Under the pieces are notes generated by a model, which saw only the letters and a list, made by a program, of their open reading frames with translations, made no database searches and was not told where the DNA came from. Position numbers and translations under genes: made by a program. DNA of 64,000 nucleotides from a virus, in the IMG/VR virus record IMGVR_UViG_3300044846_003474, positions 1-64,000 of that record; one strand, written 5' to 3'. The first letter of the stretch is position 1, and each line of letters starts with the position of its first letter. Positions 50,214 through 63,847 of the stretch are shown piece after piece.

Positions 50214-50585
50214 TTATTTTAACTTGTTTATCTGATCACGATACTCAATGGACTTTTCAAATTCTTGATTCTTTATTGATTCGTCTAATTTAGATTGTAG
50301 TTCAAATATTTTTTCTTTATTCTCCTCCAATTTTTTTATCTTATCTCGTAACTCAACAGCTTCCTCAAAATTTTGATCTTCTATTGCCAAAATTAATTTA
50401 TCTTTTAAATCAATCAAATCATCACCTTCAGTTTTACGAGTCATGTAGGTATAGGAAAAAGATCCATCTGAGGATTTATAGGTTTTTTTAGTCCAATTCT
50501 TATCATCTAAAAATGATGAACTTAAACTCATTCGTTCTGAGAACATTTCATTAAAAATTTTATCAAAATTTCTAAAATTAAACAT
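50214..50585 (-). CDS. UVR-domain protein, possible Clp adaptor
   Basis: 123 residues. The C-terminal two-thirds contains two UVR motifs: LKDKLILAIEDQNFEEAVEL with RDKIKKL, and LQSKLDESIKNQEFEKSIEY with RDQINKL. UVR motifs mediate partner binding in UvrB/UvrC and in McsA, the adaptor/activator of ClpC. The N-terminus (RMSLSSSFLDDKNWTKKTYK then SSDGSFSYTYMTRK) is not McsA-like: no zinc cysteines. The gene is divergent from a ClpC-like gene that has its own UVR-type middle segment, so an adaptor role is attractive but inferred. Confidence 0.75.
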   Translation of the reverse strand: MFNFRNFDKIFNEMFSERMSLSSSFLDDKNWTKKTYKSSDGSFSYTYMTRKTEGDDLIDLKDKLILAIEDQNFEEAVELRDKIKKLEENKEKIFELQSKLDESIKNQEFEKSIEYRDQINKLK

Positions 50586-50664: not shown

Positions 50665-50682
50665 GTTAGTATTTTTTTACCA

Positions 50683-50695
50683 TGACAATTTGTCA
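50683..50695. promoter_or_regulatory. Palindromic operator 2, TGACAnnnTGTCA
   Basis: TGACAATTTGTCA, the same half-sites as operator 1. The centres are 31 bp apart, about three helical turns, so both face the same side of the DNA. Confidence 0.65.
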
Positions 50696-50747
50696 AAAGG
50701 TATACTTTTTAAACTTGATTTACTATTTTTTAATAAAACAAAAAGAT

Positions 50748-52808
50748 ATGATTGAATTTATGGATGAAAACGATAAAGGTAAAAAAAAGACCGATGGGGG
50801 AACACCAGTTTTAGATAACTTTAGTAAGGACTTAAATAAATTGGCAAGTGAAGGAAAATTAGATCCTGTAATTGGTCGTGAAAAGGAAATTTTTAGAATT
50901 GCACAAGTATTATCTCGTAGAAAGAAAAATAACCCAATAATCATTGGTGAGCCAGGTGCGGGTAAAACTGCAATTGTTGAGGGACTTGCAATGATGATAC
51001 ATAATGGTCAATGTCCAAAAAATTTATCAGATAAAAGAATCGTATCTTTAGATATTAACTCTATTGTTGCGGGTACAAAATATAGAGGTCAATTTGAGGA
51101 AAGAATGAAGATTATCATTGAGGAACTTCAAATGGCCCCAAATATCATCATCTTCATTGATGAGATCCACACAATGGTTGGTGCTGGTAATAGTTCAGGT
51201 TCTTTAGACGCATCTAACATATTCAAACCTGCATTATCTCGTGGTGAACTTCAATGTATTGGGGCAACAACTTTAGATGAGTATCGTAGACATTTTGAAA
51301 AAGATGGAGCATTAGAAAGAAGATTCCAAAAAATTGTTATTGATCCATCTACCAAAGAAGAAACCTTTGAAATCCTTAAACAAAGTAAGGGTAAATATGA
51401 AGAACATCACAAAGTTAACTATACTGATGAGGCATTGTTATTATGTGTAGAATTGGCAGATCGTTATATCACAGATCGTGAATTTCCTGATAAGGCGTTT
51501 GATATTTTGGATGAGGTTGGATCAAGAATGCAAATTGACATTAAACTTCCTGAAATTATTGAAAAATTAAAACAGGATGCTCAAGACATTAAAAAAGAAA
51601 AGGTAAATGTCATTAAAAAACAAAACTACGAACAAGCAGCAGAATTACGTGATAAAGAACGTAAAATTTTAACTGATTTGGAAAACGAAAAGAAAAAATT
51701 TGACAATGAACTTAAAACAAGTAAACGTGGTATTCCAGAAGAGATAATTTATGAGGTAGTTTCAAATATGACTAAAATACCTGTAAGTAAGATAAATATT
51801 GATGAGAAAAATTCTTTAGTTAATTTAGAATCAACATTAAACACTAACGTTATTGGTCAAGAAGAAGCCGTTGGTAAAATATCTAAATCAATTAGAAGAA
51901 ATCGTGTTGGAATTAAAGATCCAAATAGACCTATCGGTTCATTCATCTTTTTAGGGTCTACAGGTGTTGGTAAAACATTCTTAGCAAAACAATTAGCAAA
52001 AGAAATATTCGGTAGTGAGGATAATCTTATCCGTGTGGATATGTCCGAATACCAAGAAAAACACACAATATCAAGATTAATTGGATCTCCTCCAGGATAT
52101 GTAGGACACGAAGAAGGTGGACAACTTACAGAACAAGTTAAAAACAAACCTTATTGTGTTATTTTATTTGATGAGATTGAGAAGGCAAATAAAGATATAT
52201 TTTCAACGTTATTACAGATGTTAGATGATGGACATCTAACTGATGGGTTAGGTAGAAAGATCAATTTCAAGAATTGTTTGATTATCATGACATCTAACAT
52301 TGGTGTTAGAAAATTACAAGACTTTGGTACAGGTGTTGGTTTCAAATCAAGTAACTCAAGTGAAGTTGTCCAAGAAGAACAAAAAAGAGATGTTCTTAAA
52401 AAAGAACTTAGTAAATTTTTCGCCCCTGAATTTTTAAATAGAATTGATGATGTTGTTATATTTAACTCTCTAAATAAAGATAACATTGATAAAATTGTAA
52501 AATTAGAAATTGATATTTTAGTTAAAAGACTAAAATCTATGAAGTATAATTTCACATATGAAAATTCAATAATTGATTTAATTTCAAAAGTTGGTTTTGA
52601 TGAGATATTTGGGGCAAGACCAATTAAAAGAGCAATTCAAAATAAAATAGAAGATTTAATATCTGAAAAAATCTTAACAGGTGAAGTTACAGAAAACAAA
52701 GATTATAGGTTATTTGTTAAAACAGAAAATGATGAACAAATAATTGATCTTGAAGAAAAAGTAATAATGGAACCTAAGAAAAAAGTTAGAAAGAAAAAGG
52801 GAGAATAA
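50748..52808 (+). CDS. ClpC-like AAA+ unfoldase
   Basis: 686 residues from ATG 50748 (MIEFMDENDKGKKK); the frame upstream to 50682 runs through the operators. Two AAA+ modules: D1 with PVIGREKEIFRIAQVLSRRK, GEPGAGKT, IIFIDEIHTMVGAG, and D2 with IGQEEAVGKISKSIRRNRVG, GSTGVGKT, ILFDEIEKANKDIFSTLLQM. Between them a UVR-type segment (EKVNVIKKQNYEQAAELRDK), as in ClpC. No N-terminal Clp-N repeats. D2 has FGTGVGFKSSN at the place of the ClpP-docking loop (VGF). So it could bind host ClpP and redirect degradation. A terminator follows at once. Confidence 0.9.
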   Translation: MIEFMDENDKGKKKTDGGTPVLDNFSKDLNKLASEGKLDPVIGREKEIFRIAQVLSRRKKNNPIIIGEPGAGKTAIVEGLAMMIHNGQCPKNLSDKRIVSLDINSIVAGTKYRGQFEERMKIIIEELQMAPNIIIFIDEIHTMVGAGNSSGSLDASNIFKPALSRGELQCIGATTLDEYRRHFEKDGALERRFQKIVIDPSTKEETFEILKQSKGKYEEHHKVNYTDEALLLCVELADRYITDREFPDKAFDILDEVGSRMQIDIKLPEIIEKLKQDAQDIKKEKVNVIKKQNYEQAAELRDKERKILTDLENEKKKFDNELKTSKRGIPEEIIYEVVSNMTKIPVSKINIDEKNSLVNLESTLNTNVIGQEEAVGKISKSIRRNRVGIKDPNRPIGSFIFLGSTGVGKTFLAKQLAKEIFGSEDNLIRVDMSEYQEKHTISRLIGSPPGYVGHEEGGQLTEQVKNKPYCVILFDEIEKANKDIFSTLLQMLDDGHLTDGLGRKINFKNCLIIMTSNIGVRKLQDFGTGVGFKSSNSSEVVQEEQKRDVLKKELSKFFAPEFLNRIDDVVIFNSLNKDNIDKIVKLEIDILVKRLKSMKYNFTYENSIIDLISKVGFDEIFGARPIKRAIQNKIEDLISEKILTGEVTENKDYRLFVKTENDEQIIDLEEKVIMEPKKKVRKKKGE

Positions 52809-52823: not shown

Positions 52824-53609
52824 TTAGTGTTTTTCGTAACCTAATTCCTCAATCATCATCTTACCAACTTTAATTCCATTGTAAGTGTCCTCTACGACCA
52901 CATATTCGTTTCTTGTATGGTAGTTGTAGTATCCAATAGATATATTGAAACACGGGATGTTAAACATAGTTCTAATTGGGTAAATGTCTGTGTAAGGATG
53001 TTTGTGATATTTCGTATCAGATGGAAAGTGTTCTGTAATCAATCGTCCACCAACTTCAAAGAATTTACTATCACGATCAAACATACTTCTTCCCATCAAG
53101 AACTCAGAAATCATATTATTCTCAGGAGCGTCAAATTGAATCCCATAACCAACATTTGTGAAAAACTCAGGATCCGCCTTAAATGAACCTTTACAACCTG
53201 TTTCCTCAGATACAAAAAACGCAGCTTTTAAATTAGGTAGTTCATTCAACAATTCCAAACAACCGTACACACCACATTTATCGTCACCACCAATACCTGT
53301 TGGTTCGTCATTGTCGTTATACGCTTTTAATGATAATTTTACATTGCCCTGAGCGTCAGGTAACATTTCTTCAAATACATTAATTGTATCAATGTTATGT
53401 ACCGTATCGGTATGTGCCATCACACAAGGGAAATATGATACGTTTTCATCGGTTTGTTTTGTTGCATAAATGTTTGACATTTCGTCAACATAAAAGGGAA
53501 TATTGTTTTTGGTCAACCAATTTGTGATAAATTGAACCATTCTTTCTTCCTGATAAGTTTTAGTGGGTACAGATAATACCTCCTTCAATAATTCATAATT
53601 TCGTTCCAT
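52824..53609 (-). CDS. M20/peptidase T-like metallopeptidase
   Basis: 261 residues, while peptidase T has about 410. It keeps YFPCVMAHTDTV (metal His and Asp), DDEPTGIGGDDKCGVYGCLE (bridging D), FFVSEETGCKGS (catalytic E and metal E) and IGYYNYHTRNEYV with the last His. The dimerisation (lid) domain is missing, as in single-domain M20/M28-type enzymes. It would be a cytoplasmic amino- or tripeptidase, possibly finishing peptides released by Clp proteases. A host-type -7 element lies only 4 bases before the ATG. Confidence 0.85.
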   Translation of the reverse strand: MERNYELLKEVLSVPTKTYQEERMVQFITNWLTKNNIPFYVDEMSNIYATKQTDENVSYFPCVMAHTDTVHNIDTINVFEEMLPDAQGNVKLSLKAYNDNDEPTGIGGDDKCGVYGCLELLNELPNLKAAFFVSEETGCKGSFKADPEFFTNVGYGIQFDAPENNMISEFLMGRSMFDRDSKFFEVGGRLITEHFPSDTKYHKHPYTDIYPIRTMFNIPCFNISIGYYNYHTRNEYVVVEDTYNGIKVGKMMIEELGYEKH

Positions 53610-53636: not shown

Positions 53637-55010
53637 TTATAAAAATTTTTTTCTTACTATTCTTCTTTCATTAAATAATTCTGGTTGATTGTCCAATTGA
53701 TATAAACCATCAACATCCAAAAGTCTTTGATGGTATTTACCGGTCTTATCGTTATGAACGTTAACTAAAACTTTATTAGTTTCAGGTTGGACCTTTAAAA
53801 TTAAAAATTGTAGGTTTGGATCCTTTTCTGTATGTCTCCATTCATACCCATATGTTTTTTCAACATGATCTAACATTTCATTGTAATCATCAATATTAAT
53901 AAAACGATCATCCTCTTGTACTTTTTCTAACATTGAGTCCAAACTTTTTGAATAATACTCTTGCATAACATTATCGTCCCAATCATCACAATTTACCTCA
54001 TACATTAACTCATTCCAATAACCTCTATCTTTCTTATCATAAAGTTTAATTAATTTATTTAATAACTCACTTAACGTAAATTTATCATTTTCAACATCAC
54101 TATACCAATGTAATAATACTCCAACAGTTGTTTCAAATCTATATCCTCTATGTATTTCTTTTATTCCGAATTTATCAAATGGTTTAGCAATCTCACCTAA
54201 GATTATATCTTTAACCACATCATCAATACAATCTTGCCATTTGGATGCGTACTCATAAATTAAATCATCAACAATTCTTCCAAAGTGTTCACTTAAAATA
54301 GCCGCAATACCTCTTTTACTACTAAGTTCAGCTCTATTTCCATAAAATTTGGCAACTTGGATAGCTTTACGTTGGTTTTCAGTGTTAAAATGGTATTCAA
54401 TAAATTCACCCTCTTTCCATCTATCCTCCTCACCATATGTGTCAGTATCACGACCTGAGTAATTACCAACAAACGTTCTATAAGTATATACATCATCAAT
54501 AGACTCAACATTAATGGTGTCTAAAAAAACTTCATCATCTTCAAATTTAATAATAACCTTAGAATTACTTGGGTTCCTTTCATTGAAGTTTATCCCATCA
54601 ATTATTGGATCGTCACCATTATCATTCCATTTAGGGTCATAACCTTTGGAAACCTCTTTTAAAAATTCATATGTTTTACCACCTTTAATCAACGGTGATA
54701 ATATCTTTAATGAAGATAAAAATGCACGTTTTAAATCGTTTACAGTAACAATTTCATTGTTTTTATTAAGGTCTCTAATAACACTACCATCCTTATCATT
54801 AAAAATAGAATATATATTTTTATCCTTTTTACTAATTATAAAATATAGATCACCATTTCTATAGTGACTATTCCAATTATCATTACCATAAAAATCAGTT
54901 CCAAAATATTGGGCAGATTTTAAATTTAATGTTTTAACAACTTTAACGTTCTCATCATCCTGTATTATATCAACATCCTCATCGTATGGGTTATATTTTC
55001 CCTTTTCCAT
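53637..55010 (-). CDS. Hypothetical acidic protein
   Basis: 457 residues, not recognised. N-terminal half is beta-type (SAQYFGTDFYGNDNWNSHYR, NGDLYFIISKKDKNIYSIFN, a segment like a YopX- or SH3-type module that reports object attributes, and IDDVYTYRTFVGNYSGRDTD). C-terminal half is helical (RGIAAILSEHFGRIVDDLIY, KWQDCIDDVVKDIILGEIAK). No catalytic motif is obvious. It has a TATTTATT motif before the start and lies beside the peptidase. Confidence 0.6.
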   Translation of the reverse strand: MEKGKYNPYDEDVDIIQDDENVKVVKTLNLKSAQYFGTDFYGNDNWNSHYRNGDLYFIISKKDKNIYSIFNDKDGSVIRDLNKNNEIVTVNDLKRAFLSSLKILSPLIKGGKTYEFLKEVSKGYDPKWNDNGDDPIIDGINFNERNPSNSKVIIKFEDDEVFLDTINVESIDDVYTYRTFVGNYSGRDTDTYGEEDRWKEGEFIEYHFNTENQRKAIQVAKFYGNRAELSSKRGIAAILSEHFGRIVDDLIYEYASKWQDCIDDVVKDIILGEIAKPFDKFGIKEIHRGYRFETTVGVLLHWYSDVENDKFTLSELLNKLIKLYDKKDRGYWNELMYEVNCDDWDDNVMQEYYSKSLDSMLEKVQEDDRFINIDDYNEMLDHVEKTYGYEWRHTEKDPNLQFLILKVQPETNKVLVNVHNDKTGKYHQRLLDVDGLYQLDNQPELFNERRIVRKKFL

Positions 55011-55014
55011 ATAA

Positions 55015-55022
55015 AATAAATA
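55015..55022 (-). promoter_or_regulatory. Phage TATTTATT motif
   Basis: TATTTATT on the coding strand 4 bases before the 55010 start. Confidence 0.4.
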
Positions 55023-55031
55023 TCAAAAAAT

Positions 55032-55062
55032 TTTGATTATTGTAGGTTTACACTTATCTTTG
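55032..55062 (+). promoter_or_regulatory. Host-type promoter of tmRNA
   Basis: TTTG (55032-55035), 19 bases, TATCTTTG (55055-55062): an exact match to the Bacteroidota housekeeping consensus, about 31 bases before the mature tmRNA 5' end. Confidence 0.85.
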
Positions 55063-55093
55063 TATTTATAATATAATAAGTTATTTGACATAT

Positions 55094-55503
55094 GGGGGTG
55101 TTTTTGGATTTGACAGGTATTGGCTGAAGACAAAGGGCACGTGGAGACTGAATTAATCTCCTTAAAAACTGATTCACAAAAACAATCGGCGACGTTTTAT
55201 CGAAAATGGAAACTCTTGGTTTACTAAGAGAATCTGAAGTTACTGTAGCCTAAGAGGTTTACGGAAACGGGGGGTCGGTGGACACATAACCTAGCAACAG
55301 AAGTCTTTATGGTGGAATACGATTGAACCATAAATCGAGTCGTCCATTGGTTGTTGATTTACGATGGTGAAGAACAAATCAACTTTGTTTTTGGTCAAAT
55401 TAAAACCAAATATTTTGGGGTATTAGAAAATACCAACCTAAACGTGTAGTCCTTATCTGACAGGATATTATGGACCGGAGTTCGAGCCTCCGCACCTCCA
55501 CCA
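55094..55503 (+). ncRNA. ssrA: tmRNA
   Basis: About 410 nt. The 5' end GGGGGTG pairs with CACCTCC near the 3' end, followed by ACCA, so CCA is encoded. The tRNA-like part shows the T-arm GGAGTTCGAGCCTCC. tmRNA rescues stalled ribosomes by adding a degradation tag. The most likely tag frame starts with GGC GAC at 55188, 94 bases from the 5' end (where the resume codon is expected), and runs to TAA: it begins GDVLSKMETL and ends SEVTVA, about 21 residues. Cellular Bacteroidota tags are shorter and end ALAA-like, so this one is unusual. Own promoter and terminator. Tag frame is by eye. Confidence 0.93.
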
Positions 55504-55508
55504 AATGT

Positions 55509-55537
55509 AAACCTCATCTTCGGATGGGGTTTTTTTA
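55509..55537 (+). terminator. tmRNA terminator
   Basis: AAACCTCATC / GATGGGGTTT stem with a TTCG loop and T run, 5 bases after the mature CCA. Confidence 0.95.
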
Positions 55538-55563
55538 TGTGTTAATATTATATTTTAGTGCAT

Positions 55564-55585
55564 AAAAAAAGGGACTAATTGTCCC
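55564..55585 (-). terminator. Terminator of the large ncRNA
   Basis: GGGAC / GTCCC hairpin followed by seven T on the minus strand, facing the tmRNA terminator. Confidence 0.85.
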
Positions 55586-56525
55586 TGAATGTCTTATATA
55601 TGTTTTAATAAAAAAAACCTGAGATTACAGTTTTCGTAAGTGTCTTTCGAGTCATTATTGGTTCTACTCTTATCCACAGGATTTTGTCCTGTAACACTCA
55701 TTACCGATTGGTTAGACCAATCACTCCTTGACGATACAACTACTCTCTTACTACTCCTGTCTCCCCAAGATTGCGTCCTGGTTCGGTCTTCGACGACCTA
55801 GAGATTTTTCATAAAAATACGGTCAAACTTGCGGTTATCACGTTCCACTGACAGCCAGTGAATAGGTGGGTAACTTCCGTTATATCGTGACGGACACTTT
55901 TGCTTTATAGTTTATAAATGTTACTTCATTAACATTAAAGTTTTTGTGTCGTGGATTGATCAAAGTTGTGGTCCGTCTTAAGCTTCATTATCTTTTGAAT
56001 AACAAAATACCAAACAACTCCGTGAAATGTCCCCATTTCAATATTTCAAGACTACTTCAAGATTAATCTCTTGGTAGAGATTTATCAAGGACAATGTCAG
56101 CACCACCTGTTTGTTGTCATACCTTTCGGTTTTAAGTACCCTATCGTACTGGGATCCGCAATAACAACATTGGAAATATTGATTCTTGCATTATCCCTAC
56201 GAGTTATTCCTATTGGAGTTCCCTCCTCAACAAGATGACCCACATCACCTCGTCATAAAATCACTTTCCCTACACCGTTGGCCTCGGTACTAAAGATCTT
56301 ATGGTATCTCGCCTGTGTACTTGACCTCAATGATCCGAAGATCACTAAGACGCAAACCCGTTACACTTGGGGGTTCACTTTATCCTACTTTCGTAGTTTA
56401 TTTTATGGACTATACACGGCCCAATATCTTTATCAGTTTCACTTTTAAACCCAAAGGTTCTTAACTTAATCCTGAACGGATAATATCTAAAATTTCAAAG
56501 AACGTTATCGGACGTTTCCGATTTG
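55564..56525 (-). ncRNA. Large structured non-coding RNA (GOLLD-like candidate)
   Basis: About 960 nt with no credible ORF, bounded by an exact Bacteroidota promoter and a terminator, and richer in GC than its surroundings. Many local hairpins are visible on the minus strand: CTAC-GAAA-GTAG, ACC-GAAA-GGT (GNRA loops), TGAAAT/ATTTCA, GATTGGT-CTA-ACCAATC, ACAGGA-CAAAA-TCCTGT, CACTG-GCTGT-CAGTG, ATCTCT/AGAGAT and GGTC/GACC. Size, phage setting and nearness to tmRNA and tRNAs fit the giant ornate RNAs GOLLD and ROOL, of which GOLLD (about 800-900 nt) was found in lake phage DNA. I cannot confirm the family without a covariance search. RNase P, rRNA and a group I intron were considered and do not fit. 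Confidence 0.7.
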
Positions 56526-56530
56526 TTTTA

Positions 56531-56561
56531 CAAATATAGGACTTTTTTTTAATTTGTCAAA
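56531..56561 (-). promoter_or_regulatory. Host-type promoter of the large ncRNA
   Basis: On minus: TTTG (56558-56561), exactly 19 bases, TATATTTG (56531-56538). Predicted start near 56525. Confidence 0.85.
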
Positions 56562-56578
56562 TACTTTGTGAATTTTTT

Positions 56579-56725
56579 TTAATGTTTTTCTATGTATACT
56601 GCTTCCGTACCGTAGTAATACGCTCTTGCTTCAGCAAAAGATGAGTTTGGTGTTGTATATTTCTTACCATTATTATCATAATAGTAGAAAGTATAGTTAA
56701 CCAATACTTGAGTTTCATCACTCAT
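56579..56725 (-). CDS. Small hypothetical protein, Tyr-rich
   Basis: 48 residues: MSDETQVLVNYTFYYYDNNG, KKYTTPNSSFAEARAYYYGT, EAVYIEKH. It has its own host-type promoter about 50 bases upstream and ends where the ncRNA promoter begins. Eight tyrosines in 48 residues are unusual. Not recognised; small size makes it easy to miss. Confidence 0.65.
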   Translation of the reverse strand: MSDETQVLVNYTFYYYDNNGKKYTTPNSSFAEARAYYYGTEAVYIEKH

Positions 56726-56774
56726 TTGTGGAGTTTTAAAGGTTAATAAATTAATGAACTTTTTAATTATACCA

Positions 56775-56806
56775 CAAAGATAGTATATTTATTCCGATAA
56801 GACAAA
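56775..56806 (-). promoter_or_regulatory. Host-type promoter before 56725 gene
   Basis: On minus: TTTG, 20 bases, TATCTTTG. It lies between the amidase end and the small Tyr-rich gene. Confidence 0.7.
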
Positions 56807-56818
56807 TGGGTTTAGTAA

Positions 56819-57685
56819 TTATTTTAATAAATTTTTAATTCGTTGTACGTCTTCTTGTATTTTTGACACTTCTTCTTCTTCTTTAAATATACCTCCAAAG
56901 TTTTTAAAAAAGTCAAGAAAACCACCTTTTTTGGGATTAGTTTTATCATCATCATTAGTGGAAGTATCAGTAGTTGTAGTGGTTACATTGTCTTTTTTGT
57001 CTTCTTTATCTTCTTTATCTTTTTGATCTTTTTGATCTTTTTGATCTTCTTTATCTTTTTGATCAACTGATACGTCTACGTTATCATTACCTCCGGGTAA
57101 TTCGTCTTCAGGTGTGTCCCAATACTTAGTAGCGTATGTCTTACATTTTTTACCTTCAGTTGCCTGTTTATTTGTGGATACCTCTCCATGACCAAACACA
57201 TTTGATAGTGAATACCCTAAACTTTTAATTAATAATAATGCCGTTTTACATTGTTTAATTGTAATATCATCATCGTTTAATCCAATAATTTCAACACCTT
57301 CTGAGCTTGAATTATTTATGTGTCCCATACCTGATTTTTGATGGGCAACATGAGCACCCTTAGATCCTTTTGGTAACGCTTGATATAATTTACCATCTCT
57401 ATCTATAATCCATTGAATTCCTAAAGTAGTACATTTTGAACTACCCTTGTAATGTCTACAATTTAAAATTTTAACAACTTGAGAAGGAGTTCCTTTACCT
57501 GCAGTATGATGTATTAAAAAATATTTAGGACTAAATTGTTTTCCTTTGAATTTTGATTCTCCAGATATATTTGTAATTTGTAAAGAAGACTCATTTAGAT
57601 ATTTAGGTCTATTGGGTACATCAGTGGATGAAAGTTTTTGTTGTAAAACTTTTAAATGTTCTAATAAAATAAAATCATTTTTCAT
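56819..57685 (-). CDS. N-acetylmuramoyl-L-alanine amidase (endolysin)
   Basis: 288 residues. Amidase_2 fold at about 45-185: YFLIHHTAGKGTPSQVVKIL (zinc His), IQWIIDRDGKLYQALPKGSK, AHVAHQKSGMGHINNSSSEG, VFGHGEVSTNKQATEGKKCK (third zinc ligand and catalytic Lys region). It cuts the bond between MurNAc and L-Ala in peptidoglycan. A linker of KDQ/KED repeats (9-bp DNA repeats, about 57000-57065) and a Thr/Asp-rich stretch lead to a C-terminal helix (VSKIQEDVQRIKNLL). No signal peptide, so a holin is needed. Confidence 0.92.
   Translation of the reverse strand: MKNDFILLEHLKVLQQKLSSTDVPNRPKYLNESSLQITNISGESKFKGKQFSPKYFLIHHTAGKGTPSQVVKILNCRHYKGSSKCTTLGIQWIIDRDGKLYQALPKGSKGAHVAHQKSGMGHINNSSSEGVEIIGLNDDDITIKQCKTALLLIKSLGYSLSNVFGHGEVSTNKQATEGKKCKTYATKYWDTPEDELPGGNDNVDVSVDQKDKEDQKDQKDQKDKEDKEDKKDNVTTTTTDTSTNDDDKTNPKKGGFLDFFKNFGGIFKEEEEVSKIQEDVQRIKNLLK
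57000..57065. repeat. 9-bp repeat in amidase linker
   Basis: Tandem 9-bp units (plus strand TTTTTGATC and TCTTTATCT) encode the KDQ/KED linker of the endolysin. Confidence 0.85.
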
Positions 57686-60323: not shown

Positions 60324-60450
60324 AATTATTGTTTTTATATAAACGTAAATAAAATTTTAAAGTTTTAGTTAATTAATATTGATGTAAAAATAGTTTTTAT
60401 TAACCAAGCATTAATTAATATTGTGGACCATATGAGATAAAAGCCCTAAG

Positions 60451-60540
60451 TAATCAAAAAAGGATTCGAACCAATACAACCGTTTTTAACTCGGTCTCCC
60501 CAATAAGATGGGTAGCGTCTACCAATTCCGCCATTTGATT
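60451..60540 (-). tRNA. Degenerate class II tRNA (Leu-like)
   Basis: 90 nt. Acceptor AATCAAA / TTTGATT is perfect; the D-arm (GCG GAATTGGTAGA CGC) and the long variable arm (ACCG / CGGT) are of Leu type. But the T-stem (ATTGG / CCTTT) has two U-U mismatches, and the anticodon stem ACCCA/GGGGA pairs at only three positions with no U33 in the 7-base loop TCTTATT. The amino acid cannot be read. Probably a decaying or non-standard tRNA. Confidence 0.6.
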
Positions 60541-60546
60541 ATAACA

Positions 60547-60819
60547 TTATTTTAACTCCTGAACTTGTTCCATAATGTTGGTAACTTCTTCTCGGCTCAA
60601 GTACCCAATAACATCATTTGTTACAGGAGTATCATAAGTTAAGTCACCATCTTTACCAAGAACCGCAATCTCAAACAAACCATTTTTACTACCATATGAA
60701 TGTGTGTGACATACAACAGATACACCGTATCCATTTTCAAACACCATTTTACACTTCACCCCAATTTGGTATGGAGAATCTTTAATTTCTTCAAACTCTA
60801 AATCTTCAAATTTTTTCAT
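60547..60819 (-). CDS. Hypothetical protein
   Basis: 90 residues: FEDLEFEEIKDSPYQIGVKC, KMVFENGYGVSVVCHTHSYG, LFEIAVLGKDGDLTYDTPVT, EVTNIMEQVQEL. A small beta protein with two Cys and HTHS; not recognised. It is 12 bases after the 60832-61356 gene, so they share a transcript, which would continue into the degenerate tRNA. Confidence 0.65.
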   Translation of the reverse strand: MKKFEDLEFEEIKDSPYQIGVKCKMVFENGYGVSVVCHTHSYGSKNGLFEIAVLGKDGDLTYDTPVTNDVIGYLSREEVTNIMEQVQELK

Positions 60820-60831
60820 AATACTTATTTT

Positions 60832-61356
60832 TTATTTTACTAAATATCTGTAGTGTGGTCTTTGGATCTCACCTGATGCGATGATCGTGAATGCTCTTAC
60901 CGTTTTCTCACCGTCAGTCAATGTGGTGTTGATGTTAACACCGATGTGAGAAGTCTCAACAACAAGTTTCTCTACGATCAAACCTTTTTTCTCAATTCGG
61001 TTTGCAAGTTTCACGATAGATCCTTCGTAGTGTAACTCAGCTTTTTTCTCTTCAGCCAACATGAATCCCTCAACACCCATTTGTTTAACTTTTGACGCTT
61101 TGTCTTTGAAGTTATTGTACTCACGACTTTGTTTAGAGTTGTAAAACCCTCTTGGGAATGACTTGAACTCAGAAGGTCTTCCTTCGTTATAAACATCTTG
61201 TGTCAATCCAAAAAAGTTACACCATTGAAGGTTGTCCCAACCTGATCTCACCATAATTGCGTCGAACTGATCTTTCGCCCACTCTTTAGTTTTAGCAATG
61301 TACTGAACTTTTAATGTTTCAGTCTCTGTCTTCAAAATGTTTATCAAGTTTTCCAT
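60832..61356 (-). CDS. Hypothetical protein, well-expressed type
   Basis: 174 residues, not recognised: helical first half (ILKTETETLKVQYIAKTKEW, KDQFDAIMVRSGWDNLQWCN), then IVKLANRIEKKGLIVEKLVV and VNINTTLTDGEKTVRAFTII. Bases are richer in GC at third positions (Arg and Ile codons) than in the neighbours, which may mark strong expression. It has an exact host-type promoter just upstream, and so is probably early. Confidence 0.65.
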   Translation of the reverse strand: MENLINILKTETETLKVQYIAKTKEWAKDQFDAIMVRSGWDNLQWCNFFGLTQDVYNEGRPSEFKSFPRGFYNSKQSREYNNFKDKASKVKQMGVEGFMLAEEKKAELHYEGSIVKLANRIEKKGLIVEKLVVETSHIGVNINTTLTDGEKTVRAFTIIASGEIQRPHYRYLVK

Positions 61357-61376
61357 ATCTCTCGTTGTTTGTTTAA

Positions 61377-61407
61377 CAAAGATATAACTTTTAATTCAAT
61401 TAGCAAT
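61377..61407 (-). promoter_or_regulatory. Host-type promoter before 61356 gene
   Basis: On minus: ATTG, 19 bases, TATCTTTG (61377-61384). About 20 bases before the ATG. Confidence 0.75.
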
Positions 61408-61427
61408 GAAAATTATTCATTATTTTG

Positions 61428-61500
61428 CGGTCCCGACGGGATTCGAACCCGTATCTCGCACCGTGACAGGGTGGAATTGTAACCATTCAACCACGGGACC
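61428..61500 (-). tRNA. tRNA-Asp (GTC)
   Basis: 73 nt. Acceptor GGTCCCG / CGGGACC, T-arm CGGGTTCGAATCCCG, anticodon loop CTGTCAC with GTC and G discriminator. CCA is not encoded. First (3'-most) of the tRNA operon. Confidence 0.97.
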
Positions 61501-61506
61501 AAGTTT

Positions 61507-61522
61507 ATCAGTCTTTCCTGAT
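61507..61522 (-). other. Spacer hairpin with GAAAGA loop (1)
   Basis: On minus ATCAG-GAAAGA-CTGAT, a 5-bp stem just before tRNA-Asp. The loop recurs in other spacers with different stem bases. The rest of this spacer (61523-61580) contains a T-arm-like ACGGG-TTCATA-CCTGT, perhaps a tRNA remnant. Confidence 0.6.
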
Positions 61523-61580
61523 CGTCACCCCTAACCCACAGGTATGAACCCGTATCGTAGTAAAGCTTGGTTGGCTATAG

Positions 61581-61652
61581 TAGTCCCACCGGGAATCGAA
61601 CCCGACTTTCCAGGATGAAAACCTGACGACCTAACCGATAGTCGATGGGACC
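61581..61652 (-). tRNA. tRNA-Glu (TTC)
   Basis: 72 nt. Acceptor GGTCCCA / TGGGACT (first pair G-U), T-arm CGGGTTCGATTCCCG, anticodon loop TTTTCAT with TTC, discriminator A. No CCA encoded. Confidence 0.95.
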
Positions 61653-61660
61653 AAAAATAA

Positions 61661-61725
61661 GGGTAGACACGGGCCTAGCTAGCCATCTTTCAGGAAAGTC
61701 CCTTACGAATATTCTACCCTTTTGT
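61661..61725 (-). other. Structured spacer between Ile and Glu tRNAs
   Basis: On minus a perfect 9-bp stem AAGGGTAGA / TCTACCCTT closes a ~47-nt insert that holds the third GAAAGA loop (CCT-GAAAGA-TGG) and CTAGCTAG. It may be an RNA element or a processing signal. Confidence 0.55.
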
Positions 61726-61798
61726 AGTTAATACTGGACTCGAACCAATGACCTATTCCGTATCAGGGAATCGCTCTAACCAACTGAGCTAATTAACT
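61725..61798 (-). tRNA. tRNA-Ile (GAT)
   Basis: 74 nt. Perfect acceptor AGTTAAT / ATTAACT, T-arm TTGGTTCGAGTCCAG, anticodon loop CTGATAC with GAT, discriminator A. Confidence 0.95.
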
Positions 61799-61803
61799 AT
61801 ATT

Positions 61804-61817
61804 TTCGTCTTTCCGAA
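61804..61817 (-). other. Spacer hairpin with GAAAGA loop (2)
   Basis: On minus TTCG-GAAAGA-CGAA just before tRNA-Ile: same loop as the hairpin before tRNA-Asp, different but still paired stem. Next to it CAATACG / CGTATTG (7 bp) spans about 61818-61862. Confidence 0.6.
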
Positions 61818-61874
61818 GTGTCAATACGGATATTTTGTGTACAATTCAGGACTCTCGTATTGCTTCCTTAGTTG

Positions 61875-62028
61875 TAGTCAGGACAGGAATCGAACCTGTA
61901 TGAACACTTTGAATTTTACCTACGCACTGTGAGGTAGTGTTCTTCATCATTCGCATTGCCTTTTCAAAATGCACTTATTCAAGGATGCCGTGCGTGTCAC
62001 TATGTGTCTACCATTCCACCACCTGACT
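61875..62028 (-). tRNA. Interrupted tRNA-like gene, 154 nt
   Basis: Perfect 7-bp acceptor AGTCAGG / CCTGACT, discriminator A, a Leu/Ser-type D-arm (GTG GAATGGTAGA CAC) and a perfect T-arm (ACAGG TTCGATT CCTGT). Between the D-arm and the T-arm there are 105 nt where a normal tRNA has 25-45. Pairings seen inside: TAGTG with CACTA, GAACACT with AGTGTTC, GCATT with AATGC, ACGCAC with GTGCGT, and CATTTTGAA with TTCAAAGTG; some exclude each other. No anticodon can be read with confidence. It could hold a ~65-nt insertion or intron, or be a tRNA-like RNA with another task. Confidence 0.65.
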
Positions 62029-62038
62029 ATTTCTTTTG

Positions 62039-62112
62039 GGTGAATGGTGGGTTACGATCCCACTACCTTCGGTTCCACAAACCGACACTCTTCCGATTGA
62101 GCTACACACACC
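62039..62112 (-). tRNA. tRNA-His (GTG)
   Basis: 74 nt including an encoded extra G at -1 facing C73, the His identity pair. Acceptor GTGTGTG / CATTCAC has one T-T mismatch. Anticodon loop TTGTGGA with GTG. T-loop is ATCGTAA instead of TTCGANN, so the usual TTC is changed. Confidence 0.9.
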
Positions 62113-62218
62113 ATTTATTTGTGATACATAGTTGACACACACTCTCGTTTCACCATCTTGTGCCAACAGGTTAATGTACTTTACGAGTTTCCCGTTTCTT
62201 ACTCTCACTTGTCTCCTA
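62113..62218 (-). other. Leader of the tRNA operon
   Basis: About 100 nt between the promoter and tRNA-His with no gene. It contains inverted parts on minus (GACA ... TGTC ends; GAAACGGGAAACTC) but no clear single fold. Confidence 0.5.
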
Positions 62219-62250
62219 CAAAGATATGTAATTACTTTTGATTTGCCAAA
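62219..62250 (-). promoter_or_regulatory. Host-type promoter of the tRNA operon
   Basis: On minus: TTTG (62247-62250), 20 bases, TATCTTTG (62219-62226). It would drive His, the interrupted tRNA, Ile, Glu and Asp as one transcript. Confidence 0.8.
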
Positions 62251-62271
62251 CAATTTGTAAAATATTTTTTA

Positions 62272-62769
62272 TTATTTTACTTCAAACGCATGAAGTAATA
62301 TACGTTTTTTCTTGGTTGAATCCTCGTGGTTACCGATCACCACACCATCTTTGATTGTGAAGGCGTGACGGCTAACTAACATAAAGAATGTCCCAACAGG
62401 GTTTTGTTTTGTAAACGTACCCACAGTCATTTTACGGTTAACTTTTTCACCCTTTACGTTAACAGTATACTCCAAAGTGTGTCTACTACGGTAATTGTTT
62501 AATTTACCAATACATTTAACTTTTTTGTAATTTACTTGATTTCTATTTTCTGCAAGTTTGGTCATTTTATCTACGGTACCATACGTCCCTTTACGATCTC
62601 TACGACCAAAATTTTCTCTAACGTATTTGTGAGCGTAATCGTAAGACACATCAAAACAAGATGCAAATGCTCTTACAACACAGTCGTTGGTTTCACGTTT
62701 TGCAATTACGGATTCTTCATAACCTTTGATTGCTTTTTCTGTAGTACAATATGGTAGTGTGTCTTTCAT
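62272..62769 (-). CDS. Papain-like cysteine protease-fold protein
   Basis: 165 residues from ATG 62769 (MKDTLPYCTTEKAIKGYEES). The reading frame upstream (TTG at 62796) overlaps the promoter and cannot be used. ETNDCVVRAFASCFDVSYDY puts a Cys at the start of a helix, as in papain- and C39-type enzymes, and FMLVSRHAFTIKDGVVIGNH has the HA(x)5DG that supplies His and a third residue. The middle holds KMTVGTFTKQNPVGTF. The small size is similar to phage cysteine-peptidase-like proteins of unknown target. Probably early. Confidence 0.7.
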   Translation of the reverse strand: MKDTLPYCTTEKAIKGYEESVIAKRETNDCVVRAFASCFDVSYDYAHKYVRENFGRRDRKGTYGTVDKMTKLAENRNQVNYKKVKCIGKLNNYRSRHTLEYTVNVKGEKVNRKMTVGTFTKQNPVGTFFMLVSRHAFTIKDGVVIGNHEDSTKKKRILLHAFEVK

Positions 62770-62773
62770 ACTG

Positions 62774-62804
62774 TAAAGATACGAAATCTTTTTCAATTGG
62801 CAAA
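62774..62804 (-). promoter_or_regulatory. Host-type promoter before 62769 gene
   Basis: On minus: TTTG, exactly 19 bases, TATCTTTA. It ends 4 bases before the ATG, so the mRNA is expected to be leaderless or nearly so. Confidence 0.75.
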
Positions 62805-62812
62805 ATGGTTAA

Positions 62813-62923
62813 TCATTTTGTTATATATAATTTTTCTTCTGATTCCATCATTTCTTTAATGTATGCTATAAATTCCTCAGAGTTGATAAACTCATTGTGG
62901 ATCTCTTCAAATATATCTTCCAT
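62813..62923 (-). CDS. Small acidic helical protein
   Basis: 36 residues: MEDIFEEIHNEFINSEEFIA then YIKEMMESEEKLYITK. Acidic amphipathic helix. It lies between the terminator at 62941 and the promoter at 62774-62804. No recognised family, short, moderate confidence as a gene. Confidence 0.5.
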   Translation of the reverse strand: MEDIFEEIHNEFINSEEFIAYIKEMMESEEKLYITK

Positions 62924-62940
62924 ATAATTTTATTTAATAT

Positions 62941-62965
62941 AAAAACCCCCATTTTACAGGGGGTG
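62941..62965 (-). terminator. Terminator after DUF2927-like gene
   Basis: CCCCC / GGGGG hairpin with an 8-base loop followed by TTTTT on minus, just past the stop at 62970. Confidence 0.85.
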
Positions 62966-62969
62966 TTTT

Positions 62970-63689
62970 TTAGTTGTACAACATTTGGATCAACTCTTTG
63001 TCAATCTCTGTGTATTCAGTAGTCTCAGTCCACCCTTGAAAGAAGATACTCTCAGGGTAGTCATAAGAGTCGTTACACAAACCCAATGATTGGGTTAACT
63101 CCTCACGTAACAAGTGTTTTTGACCGTCATTAGTACTTGTTCTATTAACATCAACATACATTGTGGCTTTTGTTAAATTTTCACCTCCGTATGCAATAAA
63201 TAAACCTTGATTGTTTTCAGTATATCCAATAGACTCTTTATCGTAGTTGTTATAATCTTGTTGAGACCCAAAAAGAATGAAAAAATTAGCGTCAGACTCA
63301 TTATCCACAATATTGATATTGATAGTAGAAATAAGTCCGTTCAACTCACTAACAATATCGTTTAATTCTGACATCAAATAATCACGTTTTTCACCAACAA
63401 CATAGATATTAATGTCTTGATTCCACTTTTTTAATGAAGTATTTCCACCATCAAACTCACTTCCGTAAGCCACTTTATTGAAGTACTCTTTTGCCTCAGG
63501 AGAAAATTCTTTTGTTTGGTCACCACCAGAACCAACCGAATTATCCTCGGCAAGAGATTTGTTAATTTCTTTAGAAACTTCTTCTTTAAGATCTGAAAAT
63601 TCATGTCTCATACCTTTGTTGACATCACTGTTAACAAAGAAACAATAGATACTGAAGATTGCGATTGAAACGACTAATAATTTTTTCAT
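62970..63689 (-). CDS. Exported DUF2927-like protein
   Basis: 239 residues. N-terminal signal-type segment (MKKLLVVSIAIFSIYCFFVN) with Cys16, then a charged linker and, from about residue 90, WNQDINIYVVGEKRDYLMSE, INIVDNESDANFFILFGSQQ, MYVDVNRTSTNDGQKHLLRE then ELTQSLGLCNDSYDYPESIF, matching the DUF2927 pattern (h.EElTQslGL..D...y..SIF). The EELTQ block resembles a zinc-peptidase HExxH helix but is HLLREE, so catalysis is unsure. The lipoprotein or membrane anchor suggests it acts at the envelope, perhaps against superinfection. Confidence 0.75.
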   Translation of the reverse strand: MKKLLVVSIAIFSIYCFFVNSDVNKGMRHEFSDLKEEVSKEINKSLAEDNSVGSGGDQTKEFSPEAKEYFNKVAYGSEFDGGNTSLKKWNQDINIYVVGEKRDYLMSELNDIVSELNGLISTININIVDNESDANFFILFGSQQDYNNYDKESIGYTENNQGLFIAYGGENLTKATMYVDVNRTSTNDGQKHLLREELTQSLGLCNDSYDYPESIFFQGWTETTEYTEIDKELIQMLYN

Positions 63690-63722
63690 AATTTTTTGGG
63701 GGGGTTTTAAATGAGTACTCTA

Positions 63723-63753
63723 CAAAGATACAAAATTAATTGGGTCTGCCAAA
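63723..63753 (-). promoter_or_regulatory. Host-type promoter before 63689 gene
   Basis: On minus: TTTG, exactly 19 bases, TATCTTTG; the best match next to the tmRNA and ncRNA promoters. Confidence 0.85.
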
Positions 63754-63773
63754 CATATTTTAAAAAAAAATAG

Positions 63774-63847
63774 TACACCCGCCAGGATTCAAACCTGGGG
63801 CCTAATCATTAGAAGTGATTTGCTCTATTCGGCTGAGCTACGGGTGC
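63774..63847 (-). tRNA. tRNA-Arg (TCT)
   Basis: 74 nt. Acceptor GCACCCG / CGGGTGT, T-arm CCAGGTTTGAATCCTGG, anticodon loop CTTCTAA with TCT, discriminator A. It reads AGA, the main Arg codon in this AT-rich genome. Confidence 0.96.

Follow-up and report, generated by a model that had tools for sequence, protein, structure and literature searches.

The GOLLD RNA env-38 has been solved as a 14-mer cage with D7 symmetry, and cages of this kind are giant complexes made of RNA only (PMC12286853). In that report, loop L21a of env-38 (residues 656-657) self-pairs between the two half-shells and alternates between GC and CG, another bridge, B7, is a kissing contact of L20 with J13/15, and a linker in the structure is disordered and lies inside the cage (PMC12286853). 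Kretsch et al. 2025 also state there that ribosomes bind GOLLD in pull-downs, and suggest that the cage stores tRNAs (PMC12286853). The nearest precedent for such an RNA beside a transfer-messenger RNA (tmRNA) is provided by mycobacterial tRNA arrays, in which a tmRNA and a structured RNA of ~430 nucleotides (nt) occur together (PMC5966550). Here we analyse positions 1 to 64,000 of the virus record IMGVR_UViG_3300044846_003474 (the window hereafter), which carries on its minus strand a GOLLD gene facing a phage tmRNA gene.

The GOLLD gene and its two domains

A cmscan search of the whole window matched the complete Rfam GOLLD model (RF02032) on the minus strand by a wide margin (E = 1.8e-82; Table 1). 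Judged from its sequence, the minus strand between about 55564 and 56526 is a full-length GOLLD RNA gene, present as a single copy in the 108-kb virus record. An earlier note, made from the DNA letters alone, had proposed for this stretch a ~960-nt structured RNA with its own promoter and terminator that faces a tmRNA, and had considered GOLLD, ROOL or a new class. The structured RNA, its two signals, its orientation towards the tmRNA and the GOLLD membership were all borne out. Among the GOLLD, ROOL and OLE models, GOLLD alone matched: ROOL and OLE gave no match at the gathering threshold anywhere in the window, and a permissive rescan of 55000-56900 returned neither of them, nor any other large Rfam RNA, up to E = 1, which rules these families out as the identity of the gene.

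For the 5' half of the gene, Rfam gives no match either at the gathering threshold or with E relaxed to 1, as might be expected of a new class of giant RNA. However, that class is already refuted by the RF02032 match of the 3' half, and the 5' half accompanies a GOLLD 3' domain in nearly all sequence clusters (see below). A protein gene that had been overlooked is also ruled out: the longest ORF lying wholly within the stretch has 48 amino acids on the minus strand and 56 on either strand, and the ORFs are interrupted by indels between GOLLD copies whose lengths are not multiples of three. The statement of the earlier note that there is no credible gene here is therefore correct, and we regard a new class or a missed protein as practically negligible.

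Relatives of the gene were collected with a DNA pattern and via a neighbouring 457-amino-acid protein, and 25 non-identical full-length copies, including that of the window, were aligned. RNAalifold predicted 112 pairs in the 5' domain, 43 of which have changed on both sides in some sequence, compared with 27.2 in shuffles (263 such cells versus 92.4); the check for compensatory changes that had been proposed was thus positive. Overall, 98.3% of the 5' domain cells are paired, against 34.7-44.6% with partners slid by 1-3 columns, a comparison that favours the tested structure because it was derived from the same alignment. Of five measures, one (further pair types) did not exceed its shuffled controls in the 5' domain (99 versus 96.9). 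The consensus energies lie far beyond those of 60 column shuffles, at -100.8 versus -31.3 +/- 4.6 kcal/mol for the 5' domain and -65.5 versus -20.8 +/- 5.1 for the 3' domain, and the antisense values are -40.4 and -38.7, respectively. The conserved structure is a property of the minus strand. For the single sequence, the z-scores of the minimum free energy (30 mononucleotide shuffles) are -4.4 on the minus strand and -2.8 on the plus strand. Two GAAA-capped hairpins have kept their loop in 25/25 copies, in keeping with the hairpin-rich RNA first described.

A broader sample, drawn from the matches listed, comprised 131 near-full GOLLD 3' domains that form 53 clusters at 90% identity. A stretch homologous to the window 5' domain was present upstream in 50 of these clusters, partially in some (L079, L086), and none was detected in L041 (Staphylococcus), L108 and L130. 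Among the aligned full-length copies, the 5' domain has a mean pairwise identity of 79% and the 3' domain one of 87%. The 5' half therefore constitutes a second, less conserved, covarying domain of GOLLD. One narrow scan of bacterial genomes with a lineage-derived pattern returned GOLLD in Staphylococcus borealis alone.

The promoter of the gene, TTTG-N19-TATATTTG, is exact, as had been noted, and corresponds to the Bacteroidota consensus; a host sigma factor would presumably drive it. The -7 box matches TANNTTTG in 24/25 aligned copies, the exception being L020 with TAACATTG. The window holds seven matches to TTG-N19-TANNTTTG, compared with 2.75 expected, and 2/100 shuffles get to seven. Two of the seven stand before RNA genes, at 55033 (plus strand) before the tmRNA and at 56531 (minus strand) before GOLLD. 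At the other end, the terminator AGGGACAATTAGTCCCT has a final T that starts a seven-T run, the predicted T7 tail. The claim of a high local GC content was too strong: it is raised in the stretch (37.5% versus 31.0%), but moderately so, and as evidence this is weak, equal or higher values being found in 8.9% of equal slices.

Portal and capsid proteins similar to gp20 and gp23 identify the record as that of a T4-like phage. Given the promoter type and the top-ranked terminase matches, which are to Flavobacterium phages at only 27% identity, its host is probably a member of the Bacteroidota, as first proposed.

Loop L21a and probable cage assembly

The hairpin that we read as L21a was placed by position, given that the start of the Rfam 3' model falls close to residue 421 and that the loop comes after CUCUA. 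Its central CG is palindromic. A count based on the motifs TCGA, CGCA and GGCA gave CG (UCGA) in 7 of the 53 listed clusters and GC (CGCA or GGCA) in 44, such that 51/53 have a palindrome; the other two are L047, which lacks most of this stretch, and L130, whose sequence fails to align there. Over all 131 listed sequences, the numbers are 32 CG, 95 GC and four with neither. The two forms also occur at the same genomic site: beside the gene of the 457-amino-acid protein (74-83% identical), GC is found in L038-L040 and CG in copies of the window type.

The most informative result of this survey is the change to UCGA: the sequence of the loop that joins the half-shells has altered but its palindrome has been kept, which supports self-assembly. 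We thus consider it likely that the RNA of the window self-assembles into a hollow cage like the GOLLD 14-mer. A point on the other side is that most of the GC dinucleotides sit in CGCAA, so that the shape of the loop, rather than self-pairing, may be what keeps them. A palindrome that switches inside one phage lineage is evolutionary evidence in favour of a cage, additional to the one GOLLD structure described in PMC12286853, and the survey adds to what we found in print. The linker of the 3' domain measures 37-73 nt in the 53 listed clusters, counted from a conserved anchor that is included in these lengths.

The tmRNA neighbour and its surroundings

We then compared the positions of GOLLD and tmRNA genes in 132 GOLLD records chosen by DNA pattern among the matches listed, namely 31 of a first set of 33, two sets of 50 and the window. 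Left out were L030, which has no GOLLD, and L034, with a GOLLD stub of ~108 nt at the record end. The tmRNA genes were located with the Rfam model on whole records, and the GOLLD genes with Rfam or our own hidden Markov model (HMM; 128/132 HMM-placed). Virus records may be fragments, some GOLLDs end at contig edges, and loci L048 and L081 fell outside the tmRNA search. A tmRNA above the cut-off was found in 74 of the 132 records, and in 72 of these 74 it lies at most 3.4 kb away on the 3' side of GOLLD, in 66 cases convergent and in six on the same strand. The exceptions are L010, with the two genes 150 kb apart, and L134, whose tmRNA lies 917 nt away on the 5' side. The chance product for the 3'-side layout is 10^-34.9 over 37 groups (GOLLD clusters at 90% identity, together with truncated loci left out of the clustering), an overstated value as it assumes uniform placement and independent lineages.

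A second sample of 44 records was picked by tmRNA pattern among the matches listed; 42 of them have a tmRNA over the cut-off. GOLLD is present in 13 of the 44 (12 over the cut-off and one truncated), and in 12 of these 13 the two genes are convergent and 153-3032 nt apart, as read from their coordinates. In the remaining one, G166, they are 174 kb apart. The pairing is therefore not obligatory in either direction, yet the two genes are nearly always adjacent when both occur in one record. In the 18 scanned records of this sample that lack an Rfam GOLLD match, no other large Rfam RNA faces the tmRNA, which rules out such a substitute there. The literature that we searched (on GOLLD, ROOL and nanocages, phage tmRNA and tRNA arrays), as far as it was accessible, yielded no description of the GOLLD-tmRNA pairing, which may be reported elsewhere; the recurrent position of the tmRNA on the 3' side adds to what we found in print.

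Over a set of 79 locus pairs, the distances for GOLLD and those for tmRNA are only weakly correlated (Spearman 0.27), a value reached by 0/2000 permutations; the figure of 78/79 for this set is no linkage test, as both genes were required within one fetched locus. Nine locus pairs have tmRNAs within 6% of each other and GOLLDs more than 20% apart, and 11 have GOLLDs within 4% and tmRNAs more than 20% apart, the pairs of both kinds being non-independent. As near-identical partners are thus combined with far-diverged ones, alleles have been swapped in place with the layout retained.

The locus varies in other ways. Record G051 (locus L065), of 59 kb, has two GOLLD genes, only one of which adjoins the tmRNA. 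Group I introns occur in the stretch from the tmRNA to GOLLD, at the end of the former or close to it (L029:3236-3459 and L022:118-341), and L195, 97% identical to the window nearby, has ~930 nt where the window has ~60 (55485-55544). Introns in the tmRNA T-loop were already known (PMC11915505).

The tmRNA of the window was not reported by ARAGORN; its Rfam score is given in Table 1. Its probable tag of ~21 residues, which is long for a tmRNA, ends in TVA and is kept in relatives: on machine translation, 14 of the 17 tmRNAs aligned, a set rich in close relatives, retained the frame, and a related frame was read by eye in L018, L027 and L002. The acceptor has the G3.U pair, the determinant of alanine charging. 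The phage tmRNA thus looks functional from its sequence. A Clp-type unfoldase is its standing neighbour, encoded within 5 kb on the tmRNA 5' side in 30/34 loci with GOLLD and 29/30 without, and a peptidase is found within 5 kb in 30/34 and 30/30 loci, respectively; 'without' here means none in the fetched locus, and L146-L237 may double-count loci of one contig. The D2 domain of the unfoldase has VGF at the usual place of the ClpP loop. A small UVR-motif protein encoded next to the unfoldase (50214-50585, minus strand) could serve as an McsA- or ClpC-type adaptor. A phage SmpB was detected in 0/23 records and a phage ClpP in 1/23, all possibly fragments; the host proteins would have to serve.

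All tRNAs listed near GOLLD (up to three nearest per cluster, 53 clusters) are on its strand. A tRNA-Met gene starts 2-16 nt past the GOLLD match in six clusters (L055, L067, L100, L102, L114 and L131), and a tRNA-Met-like sequence directly 3' of GOLLD was seen by eye in L002 and L020, in which ARAGORN made no call. One tRNA gene of the window (60450-60540, minus strand) is tRNA-Leu-like, 91 nt long, and has an enlarged anticodon loop with a four-base anticodon, CTTA, according to ARAGORN. It is conserved in L004, L032, L035, L040 and L084, its likeness to tRNA-Leu being judged by eye, and it could read UAAG or suppress UAA. Farther away, at 285-2648 on the plus strand, is a 787-amino-acid open frame composed almost entirely of PEVPLEPDVP-type repeats; it may be no real protein but the reverse strand of a gene for a collagen-like G-X-Y protein.

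Table 1. Coordinates of the features discussed, in window numbering
Feature	Position	Strand	Basis
GOLLD RNA gene, ~960 nt	55564-56526	-	5' end inferred from promoter, 3' end from terminator
GOLLD 3' domain (RF02032 positions 1-416)	55616-56022	-	292 bits, cut-off 150
GOLLD 5' domain, half-shell cap in the solved structure; outside the Rfam model	56023-56526	-	covariation, homology
AT-rich variable linker in 3' domain; no tRNA in it	55906-55945	-	alignments
Hairpin taken as L21a (bridge B8), with loop GUCGAA and its palindromic CG at 55791-55792	55785-55798	-	position
Bacteroidota-type promoter of GOLLD	56531-56561	-	exact
Intrinsic terminator of GOLLD	55564-55586	-	sequence
Phage tmRNA gene (RF00023), convergent with GOLLD, intron-free here	55094-55503	+	105.8 bits, cut-off 47
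Probable tmRNA tag frame, GDVLSKMETLGLLRESEVTVA-stop	55188-55253	+	start codon inferred
Bacteroidota-type promoter before tmRNA	55033-55062	+	pattern match
Intrinsic terminator of tmRNA	55509-55532	+	sequence
Clp-type AAA+ unfoldase	50682-52808	+	homology
Peptidase (PHROG 4191; weak M20, under Pfam cut-off)	52824-53609	-	homology
Six phage tRNA genes, nearest 3.9 kb upstream of GOLLD	60450-63847	-	ARAGORN, cmscan

Possible roles and comparison with known systems

An explanation has to accommodate the observations that the gene belongs to the GOLLD family, that its 5' domain covaries, that its promoter is conserved and of host type, that the palindrome motif is kept and that a convergent tmRNA recurs as its neighbour. 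The best one, which we hold to be moderately probable, is that the locus is the GOLLD gene of a T4-like phage whose RNA self-assembles into a cage with a role, together with the tmRNA, in the takeover of translation. The host polymerase would likely transcribe the gene, the RNA would likely fold into its two domains and the folded copies would likely assemble into a hollow cage. Taken by itself, the proposal that the cage acts in translation takeover alongside the tmRNA, the tRNAs and the Clp unfoldase of the phage, holding or shielding ribosome-linked RNA or ribosomal particles, is a tentative one that we consider somewhat doubtful. It is suggested by the sharing of one region by these genes, by the common promoter type of tmRNA and GOLLD, and by the ribosomes reported to be bound to GOLLD in pull-downs (PMC12286853).

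Several results weigh against this role. In as many as 58 of the 132 listed GOLLD records no tmRNA scored above the cut-off; the 3' flank of 41 of these is 4 kb or longer. The two genes are more than 150 kb apart in L010, G166 and also L005, whose tmRNA (45.1 bits) is below the cut-off and was counted as none. Conversely, an Rfam GOLLD is lacking in 31 of the 44 listed tmRNA-chosen records. By their coordinates, 18 of the 31 have a 3' flank of 4 kb or longer; in the other 13 the flank is shorter or no tmRNA reaches the cut-off. Among these 13, L171 retains 77 nt from the 3' end of a GOLLD where its contig breaks off. Clp and the peptidase flank the tmRNA regardless of GOLLD and thus argue for a tmRNA module rather than for GOLLD. 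The promoter matches in the tRNA region, at 61377 and 63723 (both minus strand), precede protein ORFs and not tRNAs. Finally, the linker pairs with the tmRNA no better than shuffled linkers do (-21.7 versus -21.4 +/- 3.0), and base pairing between them was rejected at this chance level.

The strongest rival of the translation-takeover role holds that the cage RNA is real and that RNA genes merely gather in a recombining region, its adjacency to the tmRNA then being functionally uninformative. The tRNAs on the same strand near GOLLD, the alleles swapped in place, the group I introns of L029 and L022 and the combination of tmRNA and structured RNA in mycobacterial arrays (PMC5966550) all fit such hitchhiking. 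However, chance gathering would hardly predict orientations so far from even (66 convergent versus 6 tandem among the 72 listed), nor that 21 of the 79 locus pairs would be at most 250 nt apart. We consider this rival quite possible, if short of probable. Storage of tRNAs that lie within the RNA or are attached to it, along the lines suggested by Kretsch et al. (PMC12286853), would account for the tRNA-Met genes just past GOLLD in six clusters and for the two cases seen by eye. This seems unlikely for the window, as ARAGORN called no tRNA in the 3' domain or its linker for a single one of the 53 listed clusters, the linker is short for a tRNA, and the GOLLD of the window carries no attached tRNA and stops at a terminator of its own.

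The convergent arrangement could also mean that the two transcripts overlap and regulate one another. This antisense control is very unlikely: each gene has its own terminator, with the stems 37 bp apart, the layout persists with gaps of up to 3.4 kb, and besides the chance-level pairing of the linker, 17.5% of 40 shuffled 3' domains pair with the tmRNA as strongly as the real one. A bolder version of the translation-takeover role, in which GOLLD cage and phage tmRNA form a single two-RNA machine, a phage compartment for trans-translation, strikes us as rather improbable. In such a machine the cage would keep ribosomal particles, tmRNA or tRNAs from host control, and the long-tagged tmRNA and the Clp unfoldase would process products with the SmpB and ClpP of the host. 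If this were true, a partnership of the two RNAs would have left its mark in the constant side and the largely constant orientation, which have persisted through the swapping of alleles. More broadly, the tmRNA on the 3' side in 72/74 listed records points to translation and ribosome rescue as a testable role for GOLLD.

The mycobacterial tRNA arrays (PMC5966550, PMC6582537, PMC9569102) likewise have GOLLD, a GOLLD-sized structured RNA and tmRNA among phage-related tRNA genes. They differ in being actinobacterial, and a fixed convergent GOLLD-tmRNA pair was not found described in the available parts of these reports. ROOL is also a large cage-forming phage RNA, often near tRNAs (PMC12286853). 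In contrast to the RNA of the window, however, it has no counterpart here, its model matching neither the window nor the 18 scanned tmRNA loci that lack an Rfam GOLLD match. The closest relative is thus GOLLD itself. The window gene shares with RF02032 and env-38 the whole 3' domain model and the two-domain layout, and with env-38 the short variable linker and the L21a palindrome (PMC12286853). Its 5' domain was delimited by its own covariation. Its length is in line with the many members of more than 800 nt, and like known members it comes from a phage with tRNAs in the region. A rise in expression during phage lysis is a further hallmark of the family. What sets it apart from env-38 is its T4-like phage, its Bacteroidota-type promoter and the tmRNA that it faces, and its L21a has CG whereas most GOLLD clusters have GC.
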